Assembly (NCBI GenBank): GCA_903946925.1
Contig: CAJAXK010000309.1
Span: 1-38,437, forward strand
From: an uncultured Bacteroidales bacterium
Lineage (GTDB): Bacteria > Bacteroidota > Bacteroidia > Bacteroidales > UBA4417
Direction of reading: 5' to 3'
DNA: 38,437 bases
The notes under the pieces were generated by a model that was given only the letters and a program-made list of their open reading frames with translations, did not search any database and was not told the DNA's origin. The translations under genes and the position numbers were made by a program. The stretch's first letter is position 1. Each line of letters starts with the position of its first letter. This document shows, piece after piece, positions 6,077 to 38,437 of this stretch.

Positions 6077-7132
6077 TTATTCCTGTGGCTCCGTTTCATT
6101 TATCCACGAAACCAGCATTTTATATCCAATCGACACCACGATAGCCCCGGTGAAAAGCCCGATAAAACCCGAAAGCATAAACCCACCTATTACTCCCAGG
6201 AAAATTACCAACATTGGAACAGGCGCCCCTTTGCCAAGCAGGATGGGTTTAAGCACATTGTCGGACATACCGCCAAGAAACAAAAAGACTGACCACAAAA
6301 TAGCCGGAACGGTATTGAGAACCGAGAAAAGATAAATTATTACCGGAATTACAACCAGAGTAGGCGGGATTTGTAATATGGCCAACATCAGTACAATGAG
6401 TGTCCACAATCCTGCAAAAGGTACCCCAGCCAGCAGAAACCCTATGCCTATTATAAACGCTTGGATAAATGCCACACCCAAAACCCCTTTCACAACATTC
6501 CCCACAGTTTTTACAATAACATCGGCAAAATCGTCCCCTTTGCCGCCTGCAAGTTTCCTGAAAAGTTTCCTGGAAGAATCGCCAACGCCGGGCACTACCA
6601 ATAAAACCCCAGCTATAATCAACGATACAATCATCTGAAGCCCTCCGCTCAAGCTGCTCATCAAGCCTTTTATAAAAGCTGTGCCATAGTCGATAATCTG
6701 ATCTTTATATTGTGCCACGGTTTGTTCGAGGCTTGATGAGGCAGAACTCCAAAACCCATAAACCGCATCTCCGATCAAGGGCCAGCCTTTAACCTTCTCA
6801 GTCGGAGGGGGAATGCTGAGGGTACCGGCATCAAAATTTGTCTTTAAATCCCTTGCGCCATCAATAATCGAACCCAGAAACAACCAGCCGGGCACCAGGA
6901 TCAGGACCAAGCCTGATAAAACTATGATAAAGGAAGCAAGTTTGGGCCTATCGCCAATTTTAGCCGAAAGCGACTTGTGTAAAGGCATCATGGCAATGCC
7001 AAGAATAAATCCCCATAACAAAATACTTGTAAAAGGGAAAAGGATCATTAGGCTCCATGCAATAATCAAAGCCAGGAAAGCCAGCCGGATCATGACATCA
7101 TAAATGTTTTTGGTTGTGATTTGGTTGTCCAT
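6077..7132 (-). CDS. AI-2E family transporter (PerM/TqsA-like permease)
   Basis: 351 residues with about seven or eight membrane segments and the family layout: two N-terminal segments, a long soluble stretch (about residues 75-165), then a C-terminal bundle. It carries the conserved G-K-G-A-P-V-P-M-L-V-I-F and G-x-I-G-L-F-T-G-A-I-V stretches near residues 300-335. AI-2E permeases include exporters of autoinducer-2, Na+/H+ antiporters and uncharacterised members, so the substrate cannot be read from sequence. It is the first gene of the minus-strand operon, with a good promoter 28 bp upstream. A clear paralogue of similar length is at 18377-19438. Its presence in an efflux operon suggests a linked transport or envelope-stress role. 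Confidence 0.88.
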   Translation of the reverse strand: MDNQITTKNIYDVMIRLAFLALIIAWSLMILFPFTSILLWGFILGIAMMPLHKSLSAKIGDRPKLASFIIVLSGLVLILVPGWLFLGSIIDGARDLKTNFDAGTLSIPPPTEKVKGWPLIGDAVYGFWSSASSSLEQTVAQYKDQIIDYGTAFIKGLMSSLSGGLQMIVSLIIAGVLLVVPGVGDSSRKLFRKLAGGKGDDFADVIVKTVGNVVKGVLGVAFIQAFIIGIGFLLAGVPFAGLWTLIVLMLAILQIPPTLVVIPVIIYLFSVLNTVPAILWSVFLFLGGMSDNVLKPILLGKGAPVPMLVIFLGVIGGFMLSGFIGLFTGAIVVSIGYKMLVSWINETEPQE

Positions 7133-7520: not shown

Positions 7521-7727
7521 ATGGTTTACTTAATAGATGATGATAAATTTGAGAGACGGGGATTTGAGATATTTCTTAATTCCACAGGAATGGAGCATAA
7601 ATCCTTTGGGAATGCAGAAGACTATTTGTCAACTGTAAAACCAGAATCTACCGACATCCTTGTTCTTGACCTTCATCTGTCCGGAATGAATGGTTGTGAG
7701 TTGTTGAACCAAATGAAAAGCGTTTAA
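7521..7727 (+). CDS. Half-length response-regulator receiver domain
   Basis: 68 residues. The first half of a CheY-like receiver is clear: V-Y-L-I-D-D-D supplies the acidic pocket (Asp6-8), and I-L-V-L-D-L-H-L-S-G-M-N-G places the phospho-acceptor at Asp50 with the usual following loop. A complete receiver has about 120 residues; the beta4 Ser/Thr, beta5 Lys and helix alpha5 are missing. The frame ends at TAA 7725-7727, and I could not find the missing half in another frame downstream. It has its own good promoter, so it may be a transcribed remnant, a deliberate mini-receiver, or a truncated gene. It lies between an efflux operon and dcuB. No partner kinase is in the window. Confidence 0.7.
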   Translation: MVYLIDDDKFERRGFEIFLNSTGMEHKSFGNAEDYLSTVKPESTDILVLDLHLSGMNGCELLNQMKSV

Positions 7728-7873: not shown

Positions 7874-9226
7874 ATGATTTTTCTACAACTCGCTATTTTA
7901 TTGATCTGCATCTTTTTAGGTTCCCGCATGTCGGGAATCGGTTTAGGTGTAATGGGGATGATCGGGCTGCTAATCCTGCTATTTGTATTTGGTATGCAAC
8001 CTGCCGATCCGCCACTCGAAGTCATGCTTATTATACTAAGTGTTGTAACTGCCGCTGCGGCCTTGCAAGCAGCCGGGGGCATGGACTATTTGGTGAATGT
8101 AGCAGCAAAAATACTGCGTAGCCATCCCGAGCAAATCACTATTTTGGGGCCGTTGGTTACCTATTGTTTCACGCTGTTTGCCGGCACCGCACACATTTCT
8201 TACTCCATACTGCCAATCATAGCGGAGGTTGCCACCAAAGCAAGGGTAAGGCCCGAGAGGGCATTAAGCATGAGTGTTACCGCTGCACACATGGGTATTA
8301 CAGCCAGTCCTGTATCTGCTGCCTCGGCTGCACTACTTACGGTTTTGGTTGCGAGTGGGGTCAAACTTGCTGATATTCTTCTTATCTGCATTCCTTCAAC
8401 CCTTATCGGTGTAATTATCGGAATATTGTTTGTGCTGAAACGAGGCAAAGAGCTGGATAAAGATACCGAATTCCTCGAAAAAATGAAAGATCCTGCTTTC
8501 GCCAAAAGCATTGACGGGGAACAAAACAACTCAGAAATTGTGCTAAAACCCGGTGCTATAAAATCTGTAATAATTTTTGGAATAGCTGTTTTAGGGGTTG
8601 TTTTATTGGGATCGTTTCCGGCCCTGCTCCCTGAATTTTCGGGCAAGGATGGGTTTATGCCAAATTTTGCAGTAAATGCTTCTGGTCAGGTACAAATCCC
8701 TTCAATGATCATGATGATTATGCTGGGAGCTGCCGGGTTGATAATCCTTTTCGCAAATACCACTGCAGCGCAGGTTACCAAAGCAAGTCTTTTTTCATCC
8801 GCAGGCTCGGCAACTATTGCCGTATTTGGGGTTGTGTGGATGAGCGGCACTTTTATGGAACATAATTATGTTCTGATTAAAAATACTTTAGGCGAATTGG
8901 TTACCGCTTATCCATGGACTTTCGCACTTGCACTGTTTGCACTAAGCATTTTGCTTTTCAGCCAGGCCGCAACAACCAAAGCATTGATGCCATTGGGATT
9001 GTCGCTCGGATTGGCTCCTGCTTTCCTGGTTGGGATTTTCCCCGCTGTGAACGGCCATTTTTTCATTCCCGGTTATCCCACCCTGCTCACCGCCATTCAA
9101 TTCGACCGTACCGGAACCACAAAAATAGGAAAGTATGTGCTCAACCACAGCTTTATGTTGCCCGGTATAGTTACCACCGTAGCAGCAGTGGTTGCTGGTT
9201 TAATTTTGCAGACCATATTATTATAA
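7874..9226 (+). CDS. dcuB: Anaerobic C4-dicarboxylate antiporter DcuB
   Basis: 450 residues with about ten to twelve membrane segments. Comparison with remembered DcuA and DcuB sequences favours DcuB: the N-terminus with F-V-F-G-M-Q-P-A-D-P-P-L-E-V-M-L, the loop R-G-K-E-L-D-K-D-T-E-F, and the C-terminal A-I-Q-F-D-R-T-G-T-T-K-I-G-K followed by N-H-S-F-M-L-P-G. DcuB exchanges external fumarate, malate or aspartate for internal succinate during fumarate respiration. It heads a tight run: aspartase begins 34 bp after its stop, then asparaginase and a porin. Since both of those enzymes carry signal peptides, DcuB may import fumarate formed in the periplasm. A shadow frame inside the gene (8164-8373) is ignored. 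Confidence 0.92.
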   Translation: MIFLQLAILLICIFLGSRMSGIGLGVMGMIGLLILLFVFGMQPADPPLEVMLIILSVVTAAAALQAAGGMDYLVNVAAKILRSHPEQITILGPLVTYCFTLFAGTAHISYSILPIIAEVATKARVRPERALSMSVTAAHMGITASPVSAASAALLTVLVASGVKLADILLICIPSTLIGVIIGILFVLKRGKELDKDTEFLEKMKDPAFAKSIDGEQNNSEIVLKPGAIKSVIIFGIAVLGVVLLGSFPALLPEFSGKDGFMPNFAVNASGQVQIPSMIMMIMLGAAGLIILFANTTAAQVTKASLFSSAGSATIAVFGVVWMSGTFMEHNYVLIKNTLGELVTAYPWTFALALFALSILLFSQAATTKALMPLGLSLGLAPAFLVGIFPAVNGHFFIPGYPTLLTAIQFDRTGTTKIGKYVLNHSFMLPGIVTTVAAVVAGLILQTILL

Positions 9227-9260
9227 ACCACTTTTTTACAAACCATTAAATACTTAACTA

Positions 9261-10718
9261 ATGAAAACAGTTTCCAAATTACTATTGCTTGCAACTGCTC
9301 TTTTCCTGGGTTTGGGTTCCTTTAGTCAGGAATTCAGGACAGAAAAAGATTTATTGGGCGAAAAACAAATTCCTGCCGACGCTTATTACGGAGTTCAAAC
9401 CATGCGGGCACTGGAAAATTTCCAGGTGAGCGGGGTAAAAACAAATTTCTACCCCGATTATGTTCGCGCTTATGCTATGGTTAAGCTGGCTGCTGCCCTC
9501 GCCAATACTGACGTTGGCAGGATGAAGAAAGACCGGTTGGATATGATTGAAAAAGCATGTAAAGCTGTAATGGAAGGGAAATACCACGACCAGTTTTTAA
9601 CCGACCTTTATCAGGGCGGTGCCGGTACATCGGCCAATATGAATGCCAACGAGGTATTGGCAAACATTGGGCTTGAAATGGGTGGCCACAAAAAAGGCGA
9701 GTATCAATATCTTGAGCCGCACGACGATTTAAACATGGGCCAATCTACCAACGATGTGTATCCTACCGCCATTCATGTTGCGTTGTTGTTGCATAACGAC
9801 AAGGTGGTGAAGGAAGCAGAATTACTGTCGCAGTCGTTCCATAAAAAAGGTGATGAGTTTAATACGTTCCTAAAAATGGGACGCACCGAAGGGCAAGATG
9901 CTGTACCAATGACTCTTGGGCAGGAGTTTCATGCTTTCGGGGCGCAGATTGACGATGCTATTGGGGCTTTACGCGATGCCGAAGCTTACCTTTGCCAGGT
10001 AAATATGGGAGCTACTGCTATTGGCACAGGCATTACCGCAACACCGGGCTACGATGTAAAATGCGCAGCCCAACTTGCAAAAATTACCGGGAAACCAATC
10101 ATACTTGCTAAAGATCTTATTGGTGCCACAAGCAGCATGCAGGCCTTTGTCCTGTTTTCGTCTGCCTATAAAAATTTAGCTGTTACATTATCAAAAATCA
10201 GCAGTGATTTGATTTTCCTGGCAACAGGTCCACGTACCGGAATTTTTGAAATCAATTTGCCTGCACTCCAACCGGGTTCGTCTATCATGCCCGGCAAAGT
10301 TAACCCTGTTATGCCCGAGTTGATGAACCAAATATGCTACAAAGCAATTGGTAATGATGTAACTGTTACTGTTGCTTCGCGCGATGGGCTTCTGCAGTTG
10401 AACGCTTACGAACCGGTGGTTGCTATTGCTATCATGGAAACCCAAGCAATATTTTATAAATCGATGCCCCTTTTCAGGAAAAACTGTATTGATGGCATTA
10501 CCGCCAACGAAGATGTAATGAAACATTATATCAACCGCAGCGTGGGTATTGTAACTGCGTTGAACCCTGTACTTGGGTACGAAAAAACCACCGAGCTGGC
10601 AAAAGAAGCACTCGAAACGAATAAAGGCATCCTGGAACTGATCCGCGAAAAGAAATTGCTGACCGAAGACCAGATTAAAAAACTCCTGGATCCAGCTGCA
10701 ATGACCGGGCAAAAATAG
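9261..10718 (+). CDS. aspA: Aspartate ammonia-lyase with N-terminal signal peptide
   Basis: 485 residues. From about residue 24 it aligns throughout with aspartase: D-L-L-G-x-x-x-I-P-A-D-A-Y-Y-G-V-Q-T at the N-terminus, N-M-G-Q-S-T-N-D-V-Y-P-T, Q-D-A-V-P-M-T-L-G-Q-E-F, and the fumarase/aspartase signature G-S-S-I-M-P-G-K-V-N at residues 339-348 containing the catalytic-loop serine. It converts L-aspartate to fumarate and ammonia. The oddity is the first ~22 residues, MKTVSKLLLLATALFLGLG then SFSQ: a charged n-region, hydrophobic core and Bacteroidota-style cleavage site just before the normal start of the enzyme. The same S-F-S-Q site ends the signal of the exported protein at 28422. A periplasmic aspartase is therefore predicted, unlike the cytosolic E. 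coli enzyme. Neighbours dcuB and ansB support this. Confidence 0.93.
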   Translation: MKTVSKLLLLATALFLGLGSFSQEFRTEKDLLGEKQIPADAYYGVQTMRALENFQVSGVKTNFYPDYVRAYAMVKLAAALANTDVGRMKKDRLDMIEKACKAVMEGKYHDQFLTDLYQGGAGTSANMNANEVLANIGLEMGGHKKGEYQYLEPHDDLNMGQSTNDVYPTAIHVALLLHNDKVVKEAELLSQSFHKKGDEFNTFLKMGRTEGQDAVPMTLGQEFHAFGAQIDDAIGALRDAEAYLCQVNMGATAIGTGITATPGYDVKCAAQLAKITGKPIILAKDLIGATSSMQAFVLFSSAYKNLAVTLSKISSDLIFLATGPRTGIFEINLPALQPGSSIMPGKVNPVMPELMNQICYKAIGNDVTVTVASRDGLLQLNAYEPVVAIAIMETQAIFYKSMPLFRKNCIDGITANEDVMKHYINRSVGIVTALNPVLGYEKTTELAKEALETNKGILELIREKKLLTEDQIKKLLDPAAMTGQK

Positions 10719-10846
10719 GGATATGGCAAAGTCGGCCGGGAATTTGAAAGTGCGTTTTTAAACTTGCCGTAAACCCGAAAATCAAACCCAAAAATAATAG
10801 CAAAAATAATAGCAAACTTTTCATCATTAACTTAAAAACCAAAACT

Positions 10847-11914
10847 ATGAAACAAATTTCTTTCAAAAGCACTCTTGTTGCTTTATTGCTCATTGTGAGC
10901 ATAATTGCTAATGCGCAGGACAAAAAACTGCCCAATATTGTTATACTTGCTACAGGCGGTACCATTGCCGGTGCCGGTGCAAGTTCCACAGGCTCGGCTT
11001 ATACTTCGGGTCAGGTTAAAATTGAGGCAATGATCGATGCTGTTCCGAATATCAGGACATTGGCCAATTTAAAAGGGGAACAACTTGCTAACGTAGGCTC
11101 GCAGGATATGAGCGTAAAAGTGTGGCTCGACCTTGCAAAACGGGTTAACGAGCTTTTGGCAACAAAAGAATGTGATGGTGTTGTAATTACCCACGGAACC
11201 GATACACAGGAAGAAACTGCTTATTTCCTGAACCTAACCGTTAAAAGTGATAAGCCGGTTGTGTTAACGGGTTCCATGCGCCCTTCAACAGCATTAAGTG
11301 CCGACGGCCCGCTTAACATGTACAATGCCGTTGCCCTAGCTGCAAATCCTGCCGCTAAAGGTTATGGGGTTATGGTGGTTATGAACGATGAAATACACGC
11401 AGCCAAGGACGTTAAAAAAATGTATTCTACACCTGTTCAAACATTCCAATCGCCACAAGAAGGTATGATAGGGACTGTAATTTTTGGCGATATTTTGTTT
11501 TTCCACAAACCTCATGGAAGAAATACCATAAACAGCGAGTTCTCAGTAGCTGGGGTTACATCTTTGCCACGTGTTGACATTGTGTATGGATGTGCCGACA
11601 TGTCTCCCGATTTAATCGATATTATGGTTAAAGCAGGTGCCAAAGGGATTGTTATTGCAGGGGTTGGAGATGGAAATATGAATGCCGCAACGCTTGAAGC
11701 TGCAAAAAAAGCTGCAAAAAATGGCATTACGGTTGTAAGGGCCACGCGTGTGCCAATAGGGGCAGTGCTCGTTAAAGGCGAAGTGAACGATAAAGAATTT
11801 GGCACCATCTGCTCCGATGAATTGAACCCACAAAAAGCCCGGGTGCTTTTAATGCTTGCCTTACAGAAACAAAGGAGCTGGGACGATATGCAGAGACTGT
11901 TCCTCGAATATTAA
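10847..11914 (+). CDS. ansB: Periplasmic L-asparaginase, type II
   Basis: 355 residues. A signal peptide of about 24 residues ends I-A-N-A-Q. The first catalytic motif A-T-G-G-T-I-A-G contains Thr39, the nucleophile by comparison with Thr12 of E. coli AnsB. The second, T-H-G-T-D-T, puts Thr118 and Asp119 at the positions of Thr89/Asp90. V-G-S-Q-D-M and S-M-R-P-S-T-x-x-S-A-D-G-P match type II enzymes. It deamidates asparagine, and usually some glutamine, to aspartate and ammonia in the periplasm. It follows aspA by 128 bp and precedes the porin by 17 bp. The product, aspartate, is the substrate of the signal-peptide-bearing aspartase upstream. An A-rich leader (AAAAACCAAAACT) precedes the ATG. 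Confidence 0.95.
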   Translation: MKQISFKSTLVALLLIVSIIANAQDKKLPNIVILATGGTIAGAGASSTGSAYTSGQVKIEAMIDAVPNIRTLANLKGEQLANVGSQDMSVKVWLDLAKRVNELLATKECDGVVITHGTDTQEETAYFLNLTVKSDKPVVLTGSMRPSTALSADGPLNMYNAVALAANPAAKGYGVMVVMNDEIHAAKDVKKMYSTPVQTFQSPQEGMIGTVIFGDILFFHKPHGRNTINSEFSVAGVTSLPRVDIVYGCADMSPDLIDIMVKAGAKGIVIAGVGDGNMNAATLEAAKKAAKNGITVVRATRVPIGAVLVKGEVNDKEFGTICSDELNPQKARVLLMLALQKQRSWDDMQRLFLEY

Positions 11915-11931
11915 CCAAACGACCCCAAACT

Positions 11932-13143
11932 ATGAAAGCAATCTATAGTAAAATATGGATACTTGCAATCCTGTTTCTGCCTGTCGCATTAATGGCACAG
12001 GTTAAAGAACCACAGGCAGGTGACACAACGTATTACAAGACACTCATCCCGGCAGAAAAACAAAACCTGCTGAAGAATATGAGTATGATAGCAAACATGC
12101 GTTTTGCCCTGCGTAATGAATTTCAGGATGGCGAATACACCCAAACAAGGTTCTCGAATGAACAATTCAGGCTGGAAATAAAGGGTAAAGTGCATGACAG
12201 GGTGTACTTCCGTTTCCGTGATCGTTATACGCGGGCCCAAACTGCCGAATCGGTCGATAACCTCAGCCGCTCAACCGACCTTGCTTTTGTGAGGGTTGAT
12301 TTAACCGATAAGTTAAGTATTGCCGGCGGTAAAATGTGTGCCGACTGGGGCGCCTACGAATTCGATTACAATCCGATCGACATCTATGAGTACTCCGATA
12401 TTATTGAATATGCCGATAATTTCCTTACCGGGGCACAGTTAGCCTATACCATTACGCCCAAGCACCAGTTAACTTTCCAGATACTCGATTCGAGGACAAA
12501 AACCTTCGACGAATTGTATGGCCCACAGCCTAATTTCGAAGAATCAAAAATGCCCCTTGCTTTTGTGCTCAATTGGCGCGGTAGTTTCTTCGAAGGCAAG
12601 TTTAACACCATTTGGGCGTATGCATTTCACAACGAAGCCAAAAACACGCTGTTGGATGAACCAGGCGGGATGAATTACATTGCACTGGGCAACCAGTTGA
12701 AACTTGGTAAATTTACTGTGGAATACGATTATAAATGGAGTCAGGAAGATCTTGACCGTACACATATTGTAAGTGATGAAATCCCTGATGATTTGTATAG
12801 CTATGCTGTAGAGAAAACCGTTTATATCGGACATTGGCTGCACCTGTATTACAGGGTAAGCCCCAAAGTTAATCTGGCTTTTGTTGGCATGGTTGACATA
12901 GCCAACTGGCAGGATGACCTGGATCCACAGAAACCAACAGGAGATGACAATATACGTAAAGCCTACGGTTTTATCCCTACAGTTGAGTACTATCCGTTCA
13001 AAGACCTGAACCTGCGGTTTTATGCAAACTTTGTTGGCAGATCGTATGTGTATTCCGACAATGCTAAAAACCGGTTCGGCGTTGTTGATCATAATAATGG
13101 AAGATTTGCCATTGGATTTGTAACACCATTAGGAATTTTCTAA
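11932..13143 (+). CDS. Outer-membrane porin, O/P-like beta-barrel
   Basis: 403 residues. The signal peptide (about 22 residues, ending A-L-M-A-Q) is followed by alternating hydrophobic/polar strands rich in Tyr, Phe, Arg and Asp, with many F-R-x-R-D-R-type strands, and a C-terminal strand ending in Phe (G-F-V-T-P-L-G-I-F), as expected for a barrel recognised by BamA. The layout resembles phosphate-selective porin O/P-type proteins found beside catabolic genes in Bacteroidota. It lies 17 bp after ansB, so it is very probably in the same transcript and provides the entry route for asparagine, aspartate or dicarboxylates. Exact specificity cannot be read from sequence. Confidence 0.82.
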   Translation: MKAIYSKIWILAILFLPVALMAQVKEPQAGDTTYYKTLIPAEKQNLLKNMSMIANMRFALRNEFQDGEYTQTRFSNEQFRLEIKGKVHDRVYFRFRDRYTRAQTAESVDNLSRSTDLAFVRVDLTDKLSIAGGKMCADWGAYEFDYNPIDIYEYSDIIEYADNFLTGAQLAYTITPKHQLTFQILDSRTKTFDELYGPQPNFEESKMPLAFVLNWRGSFFEGKFNTIWAYAFHNEAKNTLLDEPGGMNYIALGNQLKLGKFTVEYDYKWSQEDLDRTHIVSDEIPDDLYSYAVEKTVYIGHWLHLYYRVSPKVNLAFVGMVDIANWQDDLDPQKPTGDDNIRKAYGFIPTVEYYPFKDLNLRFYANFVGRSYVYSDNAKNRFGVVDHNNGRFAIGFVTPLGIF

Positions 13144-13453: not shown

Positions 13454-14842
13454 ATGGAAGAGAATACCATACAAACTGGATGGAAAAAAAATAAAAAGGT
13501 TTTCCTTTTCATTTTGTCGTTTCTACTCGCATTGGGTTTAACTTTTTTATTGAAGGAACCAACATTTACCGACTCTCAGGTTTATGTAATCTTTCTTTTG
13601 TTATTCTCAATTAGCTTGTGGCTTACCGAAGCCATGCCGGCTTTTGCGGTTAGTTTGTTCATAATAGCCTATCTGGTATTTGCCTTGGGTAACAGCTACC
13701 TGAATTCAGCACCCGAAAATATTGAAAAGTATGCCCAAACATTTTCGAGCAGCATGATATGGCTACTGCTTGGCGGTTTTTTTTTGGCTGCCGCCATGAC
13801 AAAAACCAAGCTCGACCAGGCACTTTTTAAATACACACTTAAAATATCGGGGACAAATCCACGACACTTGCTTATTGGCCTCATGGGCACAACCATGGTC
13901 GCCTCCATGCTTATGTCGAACACCGCAACAACTTCCATGGTTATTGCAGCCATTCTACCATTGGTGGCATCACTCGGAAAAAAATCAGGCATTTCAAAAG
14001 CACTACTCTTAGGGATTCCTTTGGCCGCCGCCACTGGGGGCATTGGCACAATTATCGGAACGCCCCCAAATGCAATTGGTGTCGGAGCTTTGAAAAGTGC
14101 AGGAATTATTGTCGAGTTTATCGACTGGATGAAATTTGGCATCCCTGTTTCATTTGTCCTTACAGCTATTGGTTGCTTTGCATTGATCAGGATATATATA
14201 AAGGACACATCCCCCATATCGCTGGCTTTCCTCGAAGATCAAGAGGCTAAATCTTCCGGTGAATCAATCCTGAAACGTAAAATTGTAGTTGGAGTAATCG
14301 TGTTGACTGTTGGATTATGGTTGACTGCTTCCCTGCATGGGCTAACAGTGGCATCTATTTGCGCTATTCCGCTGGTAATACTTACAGTTACAGGTGTGCT
14401 TGAGGGAAAAGATATTCAGGGATTGCCCTGGGATACATTGCTGCTGGTTGCCGGGGGTTTGTCGCTCGGATTGGCTCTTGAACAGACTGGTTTGCTAAAT
14501 CATTACGCTGATATGCTGATATCTATGAAATTAAACAGCATGGTGTTGATTTTTGTTTTTGCCTATTTAACAATGCTTGTTTCCAATATTATGAGCAATA
14601 CGGCAGCAAGTACGGTTATGATTCCGCTGGGGATGGCAATTTTGCCGGACCTGAAGTTAGAAATTGCAATGATTATAGCTATTTCGGCTTCCACTGCAAT
14701 GTTTTTGCCGGTTTCAACGCCTCCGAATGCAATTGCTTACAGCACAGGTTTACTCGAACAAAAGGATTTCAGGCTGGGAGGAATATTGGTTGGTTTGCTT
14801 GGGCCGATGCTGGCGATACTTTGGGTAATGCTTGTCGCCTGA
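13454..14842 (+). CDS. DASS/SLC13-family dicarboxylate (anion) transporter
   Basis: 462 residues with about eleven to twelve membrane segments. It shows both SNT-type motifs of the divalent anion:sodium symporter family: M-S-N-T-A-T-T-S-M-V near residue 155 and M-S-N-T-A-A-S-T-V-M near residue 380. Each is followed by the paired Pro-Pro-Asn-Ala loop (G-T-P-P-N-A-I-G and S-T-P-P-N-A-I-A). Members take up succinate, fumarate, malate, citrate or sulfate, usually with Na+. Placed just after the dcuB-aspA-ansB-porin run and before a malic enzyme remnant, a C4-dicarboxylate substrate is likely but inferred. It is separated from the porin by 310 bp containing small repeats, so it probably has its own transcript. 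Confidence 0.88.
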   Translation: MEENTIQTGWKKNKKVFLFILSFLLALGLTFLLKEPTFTDSQVYVIFLLLFSISLWLTEAMPAFAVSLFIIAYLVFALGNSYLNSAPENIEKYAQTFSSSMIWLLLGGFFLAAAMTKTKLDQALFKYTLKISGTNPRHLLIGLMGTTMVASMLMSNTATTSMVIAAILPLVASLGKKSGISKALLLGIPLAAATGGIGTIIGTPPNAIGVGALKSAGIIVEFIDWMKFGIPVSFVLTAIGCFALIRIYIKDTSPISLAFLEDQEAKSSGESILKRKIVVGVIVLTVGLWLTASLHGLTVASICAIPLVILTVTGVLEGKDIQGLPWDTLLLVAGGLSLGLALEQTGLLNHYADMLISMKLNSMVLIFVFAYLTMLVSNIMSNTAASTVMIPLGMAILPDLKLEIAMIIAISASTAMFLPVSTPPNAIAYSTGLLEQKDFRLGGILVGLLGPMLAILWVMLVA

Positions 14843-18376: not shown

Positions 18377-19438
18377 ATGGAAAATCAATCTACAAACAAT
18401 TCGGTGTACGATGTAACTATCCGCCTTTTTATCCTCACATTAGTTGTAGGCTGGTGCCTCATGATCCTCTATCCTTTTGTGAGCATTATTTTGTGGAGCC
18501 TAATACTTGCAATGGCAATGCACCCACTGCATAGCCTCTTATCGCGAAAAATGGGCGCGAAACCAAAACTCGCATCAGCTATTATCATTCTATCATTGCT
18601 TATTGTTGTAATTCTTCCAACATGGATGTTGATTGATTCGCTTGTTATTGAAATAAAAATGCTCAAAACTGCCTACGATAGCGGCAGCTTAGCGGTTCCA
18701 CCACCTAACGAAACAGTAAAAACCTGGCCAATTATTGGCAACAGCCTTTACGATATCTGGTACAATGCCTCTGAAAACCTGGAGCAACTGGTAGTGAAGT
18801 ATAAAGACCAACTTCTTGCCATTGGGGGTGTGGTTGGTAAAGGGATATTAAATGCTATAAGCGGAGTAGCTCAGATTGCAATCTCATTTGCCATAGCCGG
18901 CGTGCTTTTAGCATTTGGCGGGGCTGGCGATGAAGTGCGTAAATTCTTCAGGAAATTGGCTGGTAAAAGGGGCGATGAATTTGCCGATATGACCGTTAAA
19001 ACCGTGAGCAGTGTTGTAAAAGGGATTATTGGGGTAGCTCTGATATTGGCCATTTTAAACGGGTTGTTGTTCCTTTTGGCAGGCATTCCGTATGCCGGAA
19101 TATGGACATTGTTGGTGTTTGTTTTAGGGGTACTGCAATTGCCATTATTCTTTATCACAGTGCCTGTTATTGCATATATGTTTGCAGAAAAAGAGCTTGT
19201 ATCAGCAATAATTTGGACGGTTTTGCTGTTGATTGCAGGCCTGTCCGACAATGTCCTCAAGCCCATTTTGCTGGGTAAAGGAGCACCGGTGCCAATGCTC
19301 GTGATTTTTATCGGTGTTATTGGAGGGTTTATATTCTCAGGCTTTCTCGGGCTTTTTACAGGTGCAATCGTTTTTTCGTTCGGGTATAAGTTATTTGTTG
19401 CCTGGATTAACTCCGATGATGTAGAAGAAACGGAATGA
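18377..19438 (+). CDS. AI-2E family transporter, paralogue of the 6077-7132 gene
   Basis: 353 residues with the same order of segments as the minus-strand paralogue: N-terminal pair of membrane helices, a soluble stretch containing (S/A)-V-P-P-P-x-E-x-V-K-x-W-P-(I/L)-I-G, then F-R-K-L-A-G-x-(R/K)-G-D-(E/D)-F-A-D and the C-terminal L-S-D-N-V-L-K-P-I-L-L-G-K-G-A-P-V-P-M-L-V-I-F stretch. These long shared stretches indicate duplication within the lineage. The substrate is unknown, as for the family. It is apparently monocistronic; the next gene starts about 180 bp downstream. The leader before ATG is A-rich. Confidence 0.88.
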   Translation: MENQSTNNSVYDVTIRLFILTLVVGWCLMILYPFVSIILWSLILAMAMHPLHSLLSRKMGAKPKLASAIIILSLLIVVILPTWMLIDSLVIEIKMLKTAYDSGSLAVPPPNETVKTWPIIGNSLYDIWYNASENLEQLVVKYKDQLLAIGGVVGKGILNAISGVAQIAISFAIAGVLLAFGGAGDEVRKFFRKLAGKRGDEFADMTVKTVSSVVKGIIGVALILAILNGLLFLLAGIPYAGIWTLLVFVLGVLQLPLFFITVPVIAYMFAEKELVSAIIWTVLLLIAGLSDNVLKPILLGKGAPVPMLVIFIGVIGGFIFSGFLGLFTGAIVFSFGYKLFVAWINSDDVEETE

Positions 19439-26447: not shown

Positions 26448-26933
26448 ATGAAAAAGACAATTATAAAGGGTGTATTATTTGGATGTATAGTGGCTTTATT
26501 TTTTGCCTGTACTCCAGAGAAACCAGAAGCACAAGCAGTAGTGATTGATAAAGAACAAATCAAAAAAGAAATTCAGGCTAAGGAAGATGCATTTGCTGAA
26601 TTATACAATTCCGGCGAATTGAAGGACATAGGCTATTATGCGGATGATGCAACAACCTTTTACCAAAATAAAGCGCCATTGGTTGGCAAACAGGCAATTG
26701 TCGATTTTTTGAAATCTGATTTAGTCAATAATTCCAATAAAATTTCTTTTACCACCAACGATGTTTTTCCTTCAACTGATGGTAATCAGGTAGTTGAGAT
26801 TGGTTCCTATAAAGTGGTTGATTCTGCCAATACTGCCATTAATACCGGGAATTACATGGTTTTATTCGAAAAAAGGGATGGGAAATATGTCAGCATAAGG
26901 GAAATGAGCGCTTCGGATATGCCGATAAAATAA
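26448..26933 (+). CDS. NTF2-like (SnoaL/DUF4440-type) lipoprotein
   Basis: 161 residues. Lipobox cysteine at residue 21 (L-F-F-A-C-T). The mature protein has the cone-shaped NTF2-like pattern: an N-terminal helix (E-D-A-F-A-E-L-Y-N-S-G-E), Y-Y-A-D-D-A-T-T-F, the loop P-L-V-G-K-Q-A-I-V-D-F-L, then paired strands ending G-N-Y-M-V-L-F-E-K-R-D-G-K-Y. In cytosolic relatives the fold binds small ligands or acts as an enzyme, but no catalytic residues can be assigned here. It follows the RND operon by 57 bp with a possible promoter of its own. Role unknown, probably periplasmic. Confidence 0.75.
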   Translation: MKKTIIKGVLFGCIVALFFACTPEKPEAQAVVIDKEQIKKEIQAKEDAFAELYNSGELKDIGYYADDATTFYQNKAPLVGKQAIVDFLKSDLVNNSNKISFTTNDVFPSTDGNQVVEIGSYKVVDSANTAINTGNYMVLFEKRDGKYVSIREMSASDMPIK

Positions 26934-27228: not shown

Positions 27229-28422
27229 TTATCTCCTTCGGCCACCACTGCCTCCGCCACCCCTGGAAGCTCCACCGCCGCTAAAGCCGCCACTGCTTCT
27301 GGAACTTCCACCGCTACCATAACCTGAACTTCCGCTGTTGCGGGTGCGCGATGCTCCTGCAGAAGAAGGGGATTTGGAAGGCTGGGAAGAATAGTTTGGA
27401 CTTGATTGCCGTGTTGAGGCACCGGAGCTACCGGATTGTCGGGTTGATGGAGATGCCGTTTGACCTGTAGAGGATGCAGTTCTGCCTGATTGACGTGTTG
27501 AAGGCGAAGTTCCGGTCGAAGGGCGCGTGGTGGCAGAAGTGCCGCCTGCAGGGCGTGTTGATGCAGAAGTTCCTCCTGAGGGACGTGTAGTTGCACCTCC
27601 TTTGTTCCCGTTATAATTGCCACTTGCATTATAACGGTTCACAGTATTGGAAGTGTTCCTTGAATTATTGTAATTATTGTAGTTATTCGTATTATGAATC
27701 ACTACAGTATTTCCTCCGCCATGATAACCTCCATGATAACCGCCGTGATAGCCGCCATGGTAGTAATAATTATTATGATGATACGCGCTTATTGCCACTA
27801 CTGCAAATGCGGTAAAATAAGGCGGAGGATATGAGTAAGTATATGGGGGATAATAGGGTACATACACAGGTGAATACACATACTGCACAATAGGCGCCGA
27901 TTCAACTACAACCACGGTAGTTGATGGTGCCGGAACAGTAACGACAACTGGATCTGCACCCGAATAAGCAGGATTAGCCGTAACTGGAGCAGCAGCAGGC
28001 TTGGGTTCAATAACATAATCTTTGCCGTATAAATCTTTATCCCCCACAATCTGTAAGGTTACTTTATCATTTTTGTCTTTTGACACCAGGATAACGGCAA
28101 CGTCTTGTTTTTCTTTTTCAGTTACATCAACCTGAAGTATAAATGTGAAATCCTTGTCTTTTTGTTGAGTTACAACCTTAATGAAATCAGCCTTCTTGTC
28201 CAAATTCAAATCCAGGTTGTTAATTCCGGTTTTTTCCGTATTTAAAGTCTTTTCGAATTCTTCAATGGTTTTCGACTTTTGGAAAAGATCCAACACAGCA
28301 TATAGGTCGAGGTTATCCCCGGGCAAGCCCAATAATGTTGTATCCTTCTCCGTTTGGGAAAAGCTTGTTAAGCTCAAAATGCTCATGGCAGATACAAGCA
28401 TTATTATAAATCTGTTTTTCAT
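27229..28422 (-). CDS. Exported low-complexity protein with His/Gly/Tyr and Ser/Gly/Thr-rich tail
   Basis: 397 residues. A signal peptide ends T-S-F-S-Q near residue 23. Residues about 25-140 form the only globular part: a helical segment (L-D-L-Y-A-V-L-D-L-F-Q-K-S) and a strand region (D-F-I-K-V-V-T-Q-Q-K-D-K-D-F-T-F-I-L-Q-V). After that come a Pro/Val/Tyr-rich stretch, a hydrophobic patch (F-T-A-F-A-V-V-A-I-S), tandem Y-H-G-G units near residue 220, an Asn/Tyr tract, and many G-G-T-S-x-x-T-R-P-type repeats ending in Gly/Ser/Arg (R-R-R). The His-Gly tract could bind metal. I do not recognise a named family. A minus-strand -7 box TAATTTTG (28464-28457) lies 34 bp upstream. Confidence 0.72.
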   Translation of the reverse strand: MKNRFIIMLVSAMSILSLTSFSQTEKDTTLLGLPGDNLDLYAVLDLFQKSKTIEEFEKTLNTEKTGINNLDLNLDKKADFIKVVTQQKDKDFTFILQVDVTEKEKQDVAVILVSKDKNDKVTLQIVGDKDLYGKDYVIEPKPAAAPVTANPAYSGADPVVVTVPAPSTTVVVVESAPIVQYVYSPVYVPYYPPYTYSYPPPYFTAFAVVAISAYHHNNYYYHGGYHGGYHGGYHGGGNTVVIHNTNNYNNYNNSRNTSNTVNRYNASGNYNGNKGGATTRPSGGTSASTRPAGGTSATTRPSTGTSPSTRQSGRTASSTGQTASPSTRQSGSSGASTRQSSPNYSSQPSKSPSSAGASRTRNSGSSGYGSGGSSRSSGGFSGGGASRGGGGSGGRRR

Positions 28423-36354: not shown

Positions 36355-36397
36355 CACTTTGAAACCCAATTATTAACCTTTAATCAAATTGAACACT

Positions 36398-38437
36398 ATG
36401 AAAAAACAATTACTAACCATCTCCCTCAGTTTATTACTTGTGGCGTTTGGTTTCGGGCAAGCGTTAAACTTGCCTGTAAATTTTGAGAACGCAACACCGA
36501 ACTATTATGGTTTGACCGATTTTGGAGGCAACTCATCCGAATTGGTTGTTGACCCGACCAATGCCAGCAACCACGTTGTAAAAACCATTAAAACCGCCGG
36601 TGCCGAAACATGGGCAGGAACAACCGTAGGCGGAACCACAGGATTTGCCACACCAATCCCATTCGCAGCCGGATCAACCAGCATGAGCGTAAGGGTTTGG
36701 TCGCCAACAGCAGGTACACCAATCCGCTTGAAAGTCGAAAACTCGGGCAACGCCGGCATCACCGTTGAAACCGAAGCACTCACAACAGCAGCATCCACAT
36801 GGGAAACCTTGGTTTTCAATTTCAGCAACCAAGCACCGGGAACGGCTGCGCTCAACCTTGCAAATTCGTACAACAAAGCATCCATTTTCTTCAATTTTGG
36901 AACAACCGGCGCAGCAGCAGGGGAGAAGACCTATTATTGGGACGATATGGAGTTTTTAGCAGGCCCACCGCCAACAGGCTTAAACCTTCCTGTAAATTTT
37001 GAAAACCCAACACCTGATTACTACGGCCTTACCGATTTTGGCGGCAACTCATCCGAATTAGTTATTGACCCGACCAACGCAAGCAACCATGTTGTAAAAA
37101 CCATTAAAACCACCAGTGCCGAAACATGGGCAGGTACAACCGTAGGCGGGACAACAGGTTTTGCCACTCCAATCCCATTTGCAGCCGGATCCACCAGCAT
37201 GAGCGTAAGGGTTTGGTCACCAACAGCAGGAACGCCAATCCGTTTGAAAGTCGAAAACTCAGGCAATGCCGGCATCACCGTTGAGACCGAAGCCCTCACC
37301 ACCGCAGCATCTACATGGGAAACCTTGGTTTTCAACTTTAGCAACCAAGCACCGGGAACGGCTGCCCTCAACCTTGCAAATTCGTACAACAAAGCTTCCA
37401 TCTTCTTCAATTTTGGCACAACTGGCGCAGCAGCCGGGGAAAAAACCTATTATTGGGACGATATGGAATTTTTAGCTGGCCCACCACCAACAGGCTTAAA
37501 CCTTCCGGTAAATTTCGAGAACCCTACACCTGATTATTACGGCCTCACCGATTTTGGAGGCAACTCATCCGAATTGGTTATTGACCCGACCAATGCCAGC
37601 AACCACGTTGTAAAAACCATTAAAACCGCCGGTGCCGAAACATGGGCAGGTACAACCGTTGGCGGAACCACAGGTTTTGCCACGCCAATCCCATTTGCAG
37701 CCGGGTCAACCAGCATGAGCGTAAGGGTTTGGTCGCCAACAGCAGGCACTCCAATCCGTTTGAAAGTCGAAAACTCTGGCAACGCCGGCATCACCGTTGA
37801 AACCGAAGCCCTCACAACCGCAGCATCCACATGGGAAACCTTGGTTTTCAACTTTAGTAACCAAGCACCCGGCACTGCCGCACTCAACCTTGCAAATTCG
37901 TACAACAAAGCATCCATTTTCTTCAATTTTGGAACAACCGGCGCAGCAGCAGGGGAGAAGACCTATTATTGGGACGATATGGAATTTTTGGCAGGCCCAC
38001 CGCCAACTGGTTTAAACCTTCCGGTAAATTTCGAGAATCCAACACCTGATTACTACGGCCTTACCGATTTTGGAGGTAACTCATCCGAATTGGTTGTTGA
38101 CCCGACCAATGCCAGCAACCACGTTGTAAAAACCATTAAAACCGCCGGTGCCGAAACTTGGGCTGGTACAACCGTTGGCGGAACCACAGGTTTTGCCACT
38201 CCAATACCTTTCGCAGCCGGATCCACCAGCATGAGCGTAAGGGTTTGGTCGCCAACAGCAGGCACACCAATCCGTTTGAAGGTAGAAAACTCTGGCAACG
38301 CCGGCATCACCGTTGAAACCGAAGCACTCACAACAGCAGCATCCACATGGGAAACCTTGGTTTTCAATTTCAGCAACCAAGCACCGGGAACGGCTGCGCT
38401 CAACCTTGCAAATTCGTACAACAAAGCCTCCATCTTC
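36398..38437 (+). CDS. Secreted protein of tandem 172-residue jelly-roll-like repeats (3' truncated by window)
   Basis: Open from ATG 36398 to the window end, 680 codons with no stop, so the gene continues. The signal peptide (K-K-Q-L-L-T-I-S-L-S-L-L-L-V-A-F-G-F-G-Q) ends at residue 21. Then come repeats of exactly 516 bp (172 residues): 36464-36979, 36980-37495, 37496-38011 and 38012 to the end (142 residues seen). Each begins L-N-L-P-V-N-F-E-N and ends Y-Y-W-D-D-M-E-F-L with a P-P-P-T-G linker. The pattern (D-F-G-G-N near the start, A-E-T-W-A-G-T-T, V-R-V-W-S-P-x-A-G-T-P-I-R-L-K-V-E-N) is that of carbohydrate-binding-like beta-sandwich domains common in secreted Bacteroidota proteins, often with a type IX sorting tail; any such tail is beyond the window. 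Probably a surface glycan-binding protein or adhesin, controlled by the upstream sensor. Confidence 0.88.
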   Translation, partial: MKKQLLTISLSLLLVAFGFGQALNLPVNFENATPNYYGLTDFGGNSSELVVDPTNASNHVVKTIKTAGAETWAGTTVGGTTGFATPIPFAAGSTSMSVRVWSPTAGTPIRLKVENSGNAGITVETEALTTAASTWETLVFNFSNQAPGTAALNLANSYNKASIFFNFGTTGAAAGEKTYYWDDMEFLAGPPPTGLNLPVNFENPTPDYYGLTDFGGNSSELVIDPTNASNHVVKTIKTTSAETWAGTTVGGTTGFATPIPFAAGSTSMSVRVWSPTAGTPIRLKVENSGNAGITVETEALTTAASTWETLVFNFSNQAPGTAALNLANSYNKASIFFNFGTTGAAAGEKTYYWDDMEFLAGPPPTGLNLPVNFENPTPDYYGLTDFGGNSSELVIDPTNASNHVVKTIKTAGAETWAGTTVGGTTGFATPIPFAAGSTSMSVRVWSPTAGTPIRLKVENSGNAGITVETEALTTAASTWETLVFNFSNQAPGTAALNLANSYNKASIFFNFGTTGAAAGEKTYYWDDMEFLAGPPPTGLNLPVNFENPTPDYYGLTDFGGNSSELVVDPTNASNHVVKTIKTAGAETWAGTTVGGTTGFATPIPFAAGSTSMSVRVWSPTAGTPIRLKVENSGNAGITVETEALTTAASTWETLVFNFSNQAPGTAALNLANSYNKASIF
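36464..38437 (+). repeat. Coding tandem repeat, 516-bp period, at least 3.8 copies
   Basis: The marker ACCGATTTTGG recurs at 36515, 37031, 37547 and 38063, exactly 516 bp apart. Protein differences between copies are very few: Ala/Pro and Asn/Asp near the start of copy 1, Val/Ile before D-P-T-N, and Ala-Gly/Thr-Ser in copy 2. Many third-codon positions differ. The minus strand of each copy has a long open frame that is only a shadow. Confidence 0.95.

Follow-up and report, generated by a model that had tools for sequence, protein, structure and literature searches.

A predicted exported aspartase-family lyase paired with type II asparaginase in a candidate extracytoplasmic deamination module of Bacteroidota

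Amino-acid catabolism is usually pictured as uptake followed by deamination; the gene cluster described here appears to invert this order for both asparagine nitrogens. The cluster contains a predicted exported aspartase-family lyase (AspA) and a type II L-asparaginase (AnsB) and lies in a 38,437-nucleotide stretch from an uncultured Bacteroidales bacterium (CAJAXK010000309.1 of GCA_903946925.1; hereafter the window), which is one entire contig of a genome assembly of 6.17 Mb in 498 contigs. The nearest described system, going by the excerpt of its source, is that of Actinobacillus succinogenes, where Asuc_0140-0142 bring a putative periplasmic asparaginase II, the aspartase AspA and the Dcu antiporter DcuA together in one cluster leading from asparagine and aspartate to fumarate; there, however, DcuA imports aspartate and AspA deaminates it inside the cell (PMC10634366). 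The module considered here departs from that arrangement in the export signal of its lyase, in an altered active site, in a porin and in the frequent lack of a Dcu gene. In Campylobacter jejuni one form of asparaginase, AnsB(s), is likewise placed in the periplasm by a Sec signal, which enables the use of asparagine, but in the excerpted account the asparaginase alone is relocated and aspartate is imported before its deamination (PMC4178425). The asparagine-utilisation operon of Corynebacterium glutamicum similarly combines asparaginase and aspartase for sequential deamination to fumarate, together with a transporter, yet amino-acid uptake lies within the pathway and the excerpt mentions no exported aspartase (PMC9145765). 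Escherichia coli K-12 offers a further likeness, as its aspA adjoins a Dcu gene (dcuA) and its AspA and AnsB are 49% and 50% identical to those of the window; its AspA, however, starts at the lyase domain without an extension, its ansB lies elsewhere, and porin linkage was not seen in the stretch examined. A search of the open-access literature, subscription literature being outside its scope, found no aspartase described as periplasmic, exported, secreted or extracellular among the matches listed. The reactions and protein families are known; what is new is the predicted placement of the enzyme and its active-site signature.

The original prediction had read the locus as dcuB-aspA-ansB-porin, and, the DcuB label of the carrier apart, the listing of open reading frames (ORFs) in the window confirms the four plus-strand ORFs, their positions and order, and the intergenic gaps of 34, 128 and 17 bp between them. 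The same-strand run extends to a fifth gene, for a DASS carrier, which starts 310 bp past the porin gene. Its features are as follows.

7874-9226, plus strand: Dcu-family (DcuA/DcuB type) C4-dicarboxylate carrier, 450 amino acids (aa); PF03605 459.5 bits; NF006927, NF009136 and TIGR00770 above cut-off.
9261-10718, plus strand: aspartase-family lyase (AspA), export predicted, 485 aa; Lyase_1 and FumaraseC_C domains; NF008909 above cut-off.
9261-9326, plus strand: predicted Sec/signal peptidase I (SPI) signal peptide of AspA, residues 1-22, cut before Gln23.
9885-9893, plus strand: AspA T-E-G, residues 209-211; Glu210 corresponds to E. coli AspA Gln190 and to the AspB His188 position.
10847-11914, plus strand: type II L-asparaginase (AnsB) with predicted signal peptide, 355 aa; TIGR00520 435.8 bits against a cut-off of 314.3.
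11932-13143, plus strand: Porin_O_P outer-membrane porin with signal-like N-terminus, 403 aa; PF07396 102.9 bits.
13454-14842, plus strand: DASS-family carrier, possible second C4-dicarboxylate importer; TIGR00785 246 bits against 198.6.

What could such an arrangement accomplish? We consider it quite likely that the module is an extracytoplasmic unit for the deamination of asparagine and aspartate which imports the fumarate carbon skeleton. Asparagine and aspartate would enter the periplasm via the linked porin, where AnsB would convert asparagine to aspartate and ammonium and the exported lyase would split aspartate into fumarate and ammonium. The carbon skeleton alone would then be imported, here by the Dcu and/or DASS carrier and by other carriers where both are missing, and would feed the tricarboxylic acid cycle, with ammonium remaining outside or entering separately; in the window's genome, use of fumarate as an electron acceptor under oxygen shortage might be secondary. 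We infer the periplasmic location, the L-aspartate substrate, the direction of the reaction and the transport of fumarate from features that the sequence itself displays: the signal, the gene linkage, the clade, and intact carboxylate-binding and catalytic residues. The aspartase reaction is reversible, a property that the excerpted text of an AspB redesign study notes for amination (PMC11744663), so that low outside ammonium and fumarate would favour the forward reaction and dilution would pull it further in that direction. If this scheme is true, amino-acid carbon would be usable without an amino-acid transporter, ammonium would be left outside, and the communities of soils and lakes would have ammonium and fumarate as goods in common.

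The export of the lyase is indicated by several properties of its N-terminus. In the window it reads MKTVSKLLLLATALFLGLGSFS^QEFRTEKDLLGE (the caret marks the predicted cut, giving a mature start QEF), and a rule scan and hydropathy analysis, both run with controls, find in it a positive n-region, a hydrophobic core and small residues at -3 and -1, the properties expected of a Sec/SPI signal; the hydropathy of the signal is 2.85. Signal and active-site comparisons cover 74 rows of the main exported clade, duplicates included (69 unique with L081, 68 without it), many of them from close Flavobacterium relatives, and the counts are accordingly not independent events. The rule called a signal in 73 of the 74 rows, the sole miss (L090) being due to Pro at -2. 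Non-exported rows were called in 2 of 36 cases, comprising none of the 16 cytosolic relatives, 1 of 18 fumarases and others, and 1 of 2 references, namely E. coli AspA, where the call starts at the internal Met50; shuffled controls were called in 131 of 1480. Peak 10-residue hydropathy in the 40 residues preceding the lyase domain ranges from 1.86 to 3.43 in the 68 unique exported rows. For the 36 non-exported rows, where the first 40 residues were taken, the range is -0.18 to 1.75, and the absence of overlap separates the two groups. Mean identity between rows is 20% in the signal block and 85% over the next 100 residues, the pattern expected for signal peptides. An AlphaFold model of the window AspA (mean predicted local distance difference test score 85.4) matches solved aspartases (6wng: Z 50.2, root-mean-square deviation 2.6, 457 aligned), with class II fumarases next (Z 45-49); at least one fifth of the 50 structural-match rows cover residues 23-485, with row starts varying from 18 to 26, and since the matches begin at about residue 23 the signal is the N-terminal part that remains.

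The residue following the cut is also informative. Among the 68 unique called rows, 57 have Gln directly after the last permitted cut, in agreement with the Bacteroidetes Q-rule of Gln at +1 as given in the excerpted source (PMC5837995). This count comes from a rerun of the rule without any bonus for Gln; the first version favoured Gln at +1, and its figure of 63/73 is not used as evidence. The pair AQ, SQ or GQ by itself is uninformative, occurring in 17 of 36 non-exported N-termini. That the N-terminal stretch is instead an uncleaved anchor or a misread start, the enzyme being cytosolic, we regard as very improbable: the rule does not distinguish a signal peptide from a membrane helix or anchor, but the agreement with the Q-rule argues for cleavage, the next in-frame Met is residue 48, within the conserved start of the lyase, and even if the stretch were an anchor, its Lys-bearing N-terminus would, by the positive-inside rule, leave the enzyme outside. 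The signal of about 22 residues ahead of the usual lyase start, as originally predicted, is thus borne out by the rule calls, by hydropathy and by Gln at +1. The extension had beforehand been expected to be present and hydrophobic in relatives, and so it proved within the clade. The signal looks real and appears to be retained by selection.

Other routes of export fit the main clade less well. Tat (twin-arginine translocation) export was excluded, as an RR pair is absent from all 73 called signals, and so was lipoprotein export, Cys at +1 being absent from the same 73. Depletion of Cys was discarded as a mark of export, the means of 4.8 in exported and 6.3 in cytosolic proteins differing too weakly. 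The distant relatives L131, L146 and L147 likewise begin with a hydrophobic signal. In two of them, L146 (1935-3500, minus strand) and L147 (7755-9305, plus strand), a hydrophobic stretch is followed by a common F[DE]GGCG motif, from which a polar linker leads to the lyase domain; these lyases are possibly unusual lipoproteins, although the SPI rule finds a site in both alongside the lipoprotein-like motif, and Asp or Glu at -3 is non-standard for a lipobox.

The window lyase reaches NF008909, the AspA subfamily (648.8 bits against 510), and is 37% identical to FumC beside its 49% identity to E. coli AspA. All exported rows form one clade, supported at 100/100 with three distant members included and borne on a long stem of 0.86 changes per column, which lies apart from E. 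coli AspA, from the Bacteroidota aspartases of about 625 aa and from fumarases (alignment counts omit the partial rows L021, L111 and L113 because of their length). The candidate sister aspartase of the exported clade has a support of 89/63 in this tree. In a separate tree, from which L081 and five duplicates were omitted, the 68 main-clade rows alone receive a Shimodaira-Hasegawa-like approximate likelihood ratio test value of 99. A fumarase identity was ruled out by the tree, in which fumarases lie beyond a 100/100 branch, and by the identity values. The aspartases of about 625 aa are among the nearest non-clade relatives, at about 50-54% identity, but differ in that a signal was called in 0/16, in Gln at the amine contact and in the absence of AnsB from 22 of 22 non-exported loci. 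One of these long proteins, L010 (1039-2895), was scanned and carries an N-terminal cyclic-nucleotide-binding domain (PF00027); others show similar N-termini.

The active site combines strict conservation with one consistent change. The catalytic SS-loop GSSIMPxKVNP and the carboxylate-binding Thr/Ser/Asn are kept in 74/74 rows, duplicates included. In AspB, according to the excerpted redesign study, the alpha-carboxylate pocket is formed by Thr187, Met321, Lys324 and Asn326, and His188 contacts the substrate amine (PMC11744663). Pocket residues of this type and the catalytic serine loop are conserved in the exported clade, but the position of His188 is taken by Glu in 74/74 main rows and 3/3 distant ones (77/77 exported rows, some of them duplicates). 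Gln occupies it in all 24 non-exported aspartase relatives (16 + 8 rows; Glu in 0/24), and the His or Gln usual in the compared aspartases, which is not a formal family criterion, is absent from the clade. This clade-specific change formed no part of the original prediction. It amounts to a natural aspartase-like set with invariant Glu at the amine contact, a position deliberately left unvaried in that redesign (PMC11744663, in excerpt). Window residues 154, 156, 160, 211 and 382 are also unlike those of the non-exported aspartase relatives; His154, Asp156, Gly160 and Gly211 are invariant throughout the main clade, although Asp156 is a fumarase residue too and Ala382 turns up in single outside rows. 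The distant branch keeps Glu, but its residue 211 is Leu or Met, residue 160 is Ser and residue 156 is His, which is most simply explained if Glu arose first. Our guess is that the Glu makes a charge contact to the ammonium group of the substrate.

The same residues bear on an alternative, namely that L-aspartate is not what the lyase acts on, its substrate being perhaps an N-substituted aspartate, and that AnsB belongs to a general deamidation set. The fixed replacement of His or Gln by Glu would suit it, as would the five further divergent positions (156 and 382 with the exceptions noted), and a linked glutaminase homologue occurs in 13 of the 74 loci and an amidohydrolase in some. We nevertheless judge it improbable, since the alpha-carboxylate pocket and the catalytic serine loop are retained and AnsB, the almost invariable neighbour, yields L-aspartate.

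The association between the two enzymes is close. In 72 of the 74 loci AnsB is the direct neighbour of the exported lyase, and in L131 it lies one gene off, with Dcu between; the only locus without it, L111, is on a contig ending inside AspA. AnsB is on the lyase strand in 73/73 cases, AspA coming first in 49 loci and AnsB in 24, and the occurrence of both orders indicates that the pairing outlasted rearrangement. No AnsB was found at the 22 loci of non-exported relatives, where flanks were mostly about 1.5 kb or less (more in L106). Signals were called by the rule in 72/72 AnsB proteins. That of the window reaches TIGR00520 and misses the equivalog NF008304 (434.4 against 506), and eight active-site columns match E. 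coli AnsB in it and in 69/69 relatives; the residues which we take to be catalytic, Thr12, Tyr25, Thr89, Asp90 and Lys162 in E. coli AnsB numbering, are all present in it. Gene order tracks AnsB type only partially, an idea we therefore dropped: AnsB-first loci carry proteins 48-52% identical to the window AnsB (21/21), and AspA-first loci carry proteins 47-86% identical, 8 of 49 being below 53%. One of three porin types is present in 66 of 74 loci, the Porin_O_P type in 23. The type II asparaginase with a signal (family match, signal call and intact active-site columns) and the porin (PF07396 match) thus stand as originally read, and the survey of Bacteroidota that had been suggested returned AnsB in 73 and Dcu in 28 of the 74 loci with an exported lyase. 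The data make it likely that the exported rows represent an extracytoplasmic aspartase clade with an amine site retuned by Glu, almost always accompanied by an exported asparaginase and usually by a porin, and perhaps lipoprotein in two distant members.

The transport step is more variable. The Dcu protein of the window, the single Dcu-family match in its genome, is 38.8% identical to E. coli DcuA (286 bits) and 39.7% to DcuB (281 bits); membership of the Dcu family (PF03605) is retained from the original prediction, and the DcuB subtype was dropped on these nearly equal distances. DASS is linked in 13 of 74 loci. Of the 45 carrier genomes examined whose locus holds no Dcu, 39 gave no match reaching the family cut-off anywhere, compared with 5 of 5 local-Dcu controls in which it was found; the proposal that Dcu is the only transport step is consequently not supported across the clade. 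SDF (DctA/GltP) carriers are present in 50/50 genomes, but as this family mixes dicarboxylate and amino-acid carriers their presence is not decisive for a missing fumarate importer.

Could the module instead supply an anaerobic electron acceptor, periplasmic fumarate being swapped for succinate via DcuB and reduced by fumarate reductase, as first proposed? A Dcu homologue is immediately upstream in the window, the window's genome has one Sdh/Frd-type cytochrome b, and the cytosolic analogue in A. succinogenes serves fumarate respiration (PMC10634366, in excerpt). As a general account we find it doubtful. The frequent absence of Dcu, its equal nearness to DcuA and DcuB, and the DASS carrier in the same locus all speak against it, as do four COX1-family (haem-copper-oxidase) matches above cut-off in the window's genome, two of them partial, in a family that may include nitric-oxide reductases. 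Carrier genera such as Flavobacterium, Algoriphagus and Adhaeribacter are mostly aerobic. Given the often missing Dcu and the COX1-family genes, fumarate respiration would be at most one use. Scavenging of carbon (and ammonium) probably fits better as a general role, and malic enzyme, linked in five of the 74 loci, fits carbon use. What the lineages have in common, an exported AnsB beside an exported lyase and in most cases a porin, points to deamination outside followed by import of the carbon skeleton. Export, coupling to AnsB and porin, and the periplasmic route are therefore what survives of the original interpretation, and its DcuB identity, sole transport step and electron-acceptor purpose are not retained.

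Several observations weigh against extracytoplasmic deamination of aspartate. The window AspA misses the aspartase equivalog TIGR00839 (603.8 against 681.2), and an active site unlike those of known aspartases could indicate another amino-dicarboxylate substrate. Our home-made signal rule is lenient: its calls extend to 12 of 13 DASS proteins, to 9 of 26 Dcu proteins and, among the other neighbour ORFs, to 303 of 578. Neither Dcu nor DASS is present in 39 of 74 loci, some of them on short contigs, and 13 of 45 carriers also have a second aspartase-like gene. In favour of the reading, the exported lyase is the only aspartase-like match at E<=1e-113 in the remaining 32 of 45, a limit that misses more distant aspartases. 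Judged from sequence comparison, periplasmic conversion of asparagine via aspartate to fumarate nevertheless appears well supported by the signal, the AnsB and porin linkage and the comparison across the clade.

The module is distributed widely but patchily over Bacteroidota. When 84,980 species genomes were scanned with exact peptide patterns, a procedure that detects close relatives only, 72 loci were returned, of which 71 fall in the exported clade and one (L106) outside. Carriers include Flavobacterium, Chryseolinea, Algoriphagus, Adhaeribacter, Niastella, Taibaiella and Flavihumibacter, along with metagenome-assembled genomes labelled Bacteroidales, Cytophagales, Cyclobacteriaceae and others. 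In evenly drawn samples it is rare: at an identity of at least 67%, and with the window's genome counted as extra, the module was found in 3 genomes of a 395-genome sample of the class and in 6 of a 395-genome sample of the phylum, the former three included; within the window's genus it occurs in 2 of 15 other genomes, one copy being partial. G744, G974 and G934, which belong to a different class of the phylum, make up a second, distant branch. AnsB occurs in 3/3, joined by Dcu in G744, by a porin in G974 (on a contig of only 5 kb) and by both in G934. The G744 lyase has a Sec signal of ordinary look, and those of G974 and G934 have the start with the F[DE]GGCG motif described above. Plasmid carriage was considered as well: 359 plasmid records match, all below 60% identity, hence none is a close clade member.

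Aspartase-like genes of other kinds occur beside the exported one. In Flavobacterium aquariorum and F. taihuense a signal-less aspartase (L049 4564-5970; L094 4562-5968) directly precedes the exported lyase, in the same run as AnsB, Dcu and porin. The window's genome has two further lyase matches. One (C367), presumably fumarase-like from its sequence, groups among fumarases in both trees; the other (C379; L005 1181-2629, plus strand) is aspartase-like but distant, at 33% identity, and lies immediately 5' of a gene which we take to encode a HydF-like GTPase; this position suggests a possible role in hydrogenase maturation.

A promoter and terminator scan gave no basis for statements on transcription: it found 10 promoter-like sites, where shuffled sequence had 17.9, and 13 terminator-like sites, where it had 9.1. 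Upstream of the Dcu gene, at 7521-7727 on the plus strand, a 68-residue fragment (MVYLIDDDKFERRGF...) that ends early, presumably CheY-receiver-like, may be a decayed response regulator. Genes for AI-2E-family permeases (YdiK-like, below the equivalog cut-off) lie on either side of the module, at 6077-7132 on the minus and 18377-19438 on the plus strand, and 6 further loci of the module have homologues. Neighbours of the AI-2E and DUF2490 kinds come up in a few loci, with no ground seen for counting them as module parts. Further downstream are genes for a SnoaL/DUF4440-like protein (26448-26930, plus strand) and a 397 aa protein (27232-28422, minus strand), whose homologues were found in 16 and 15 of the searched module loci, respectively, nearly all Flavobacterium, and in many of these directly downstream of AnsB. 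Near the end of the window, at 36389-38437 on the plus strand, the low ends of opposite-strand ORFs at 36505, 37021, 37537 and 38053 are spaced exactly 516 bp apart, a period not reported by the repeat finder, whose periods stop at 500; the spacing points to a protein repeat with units of some 172 aa.

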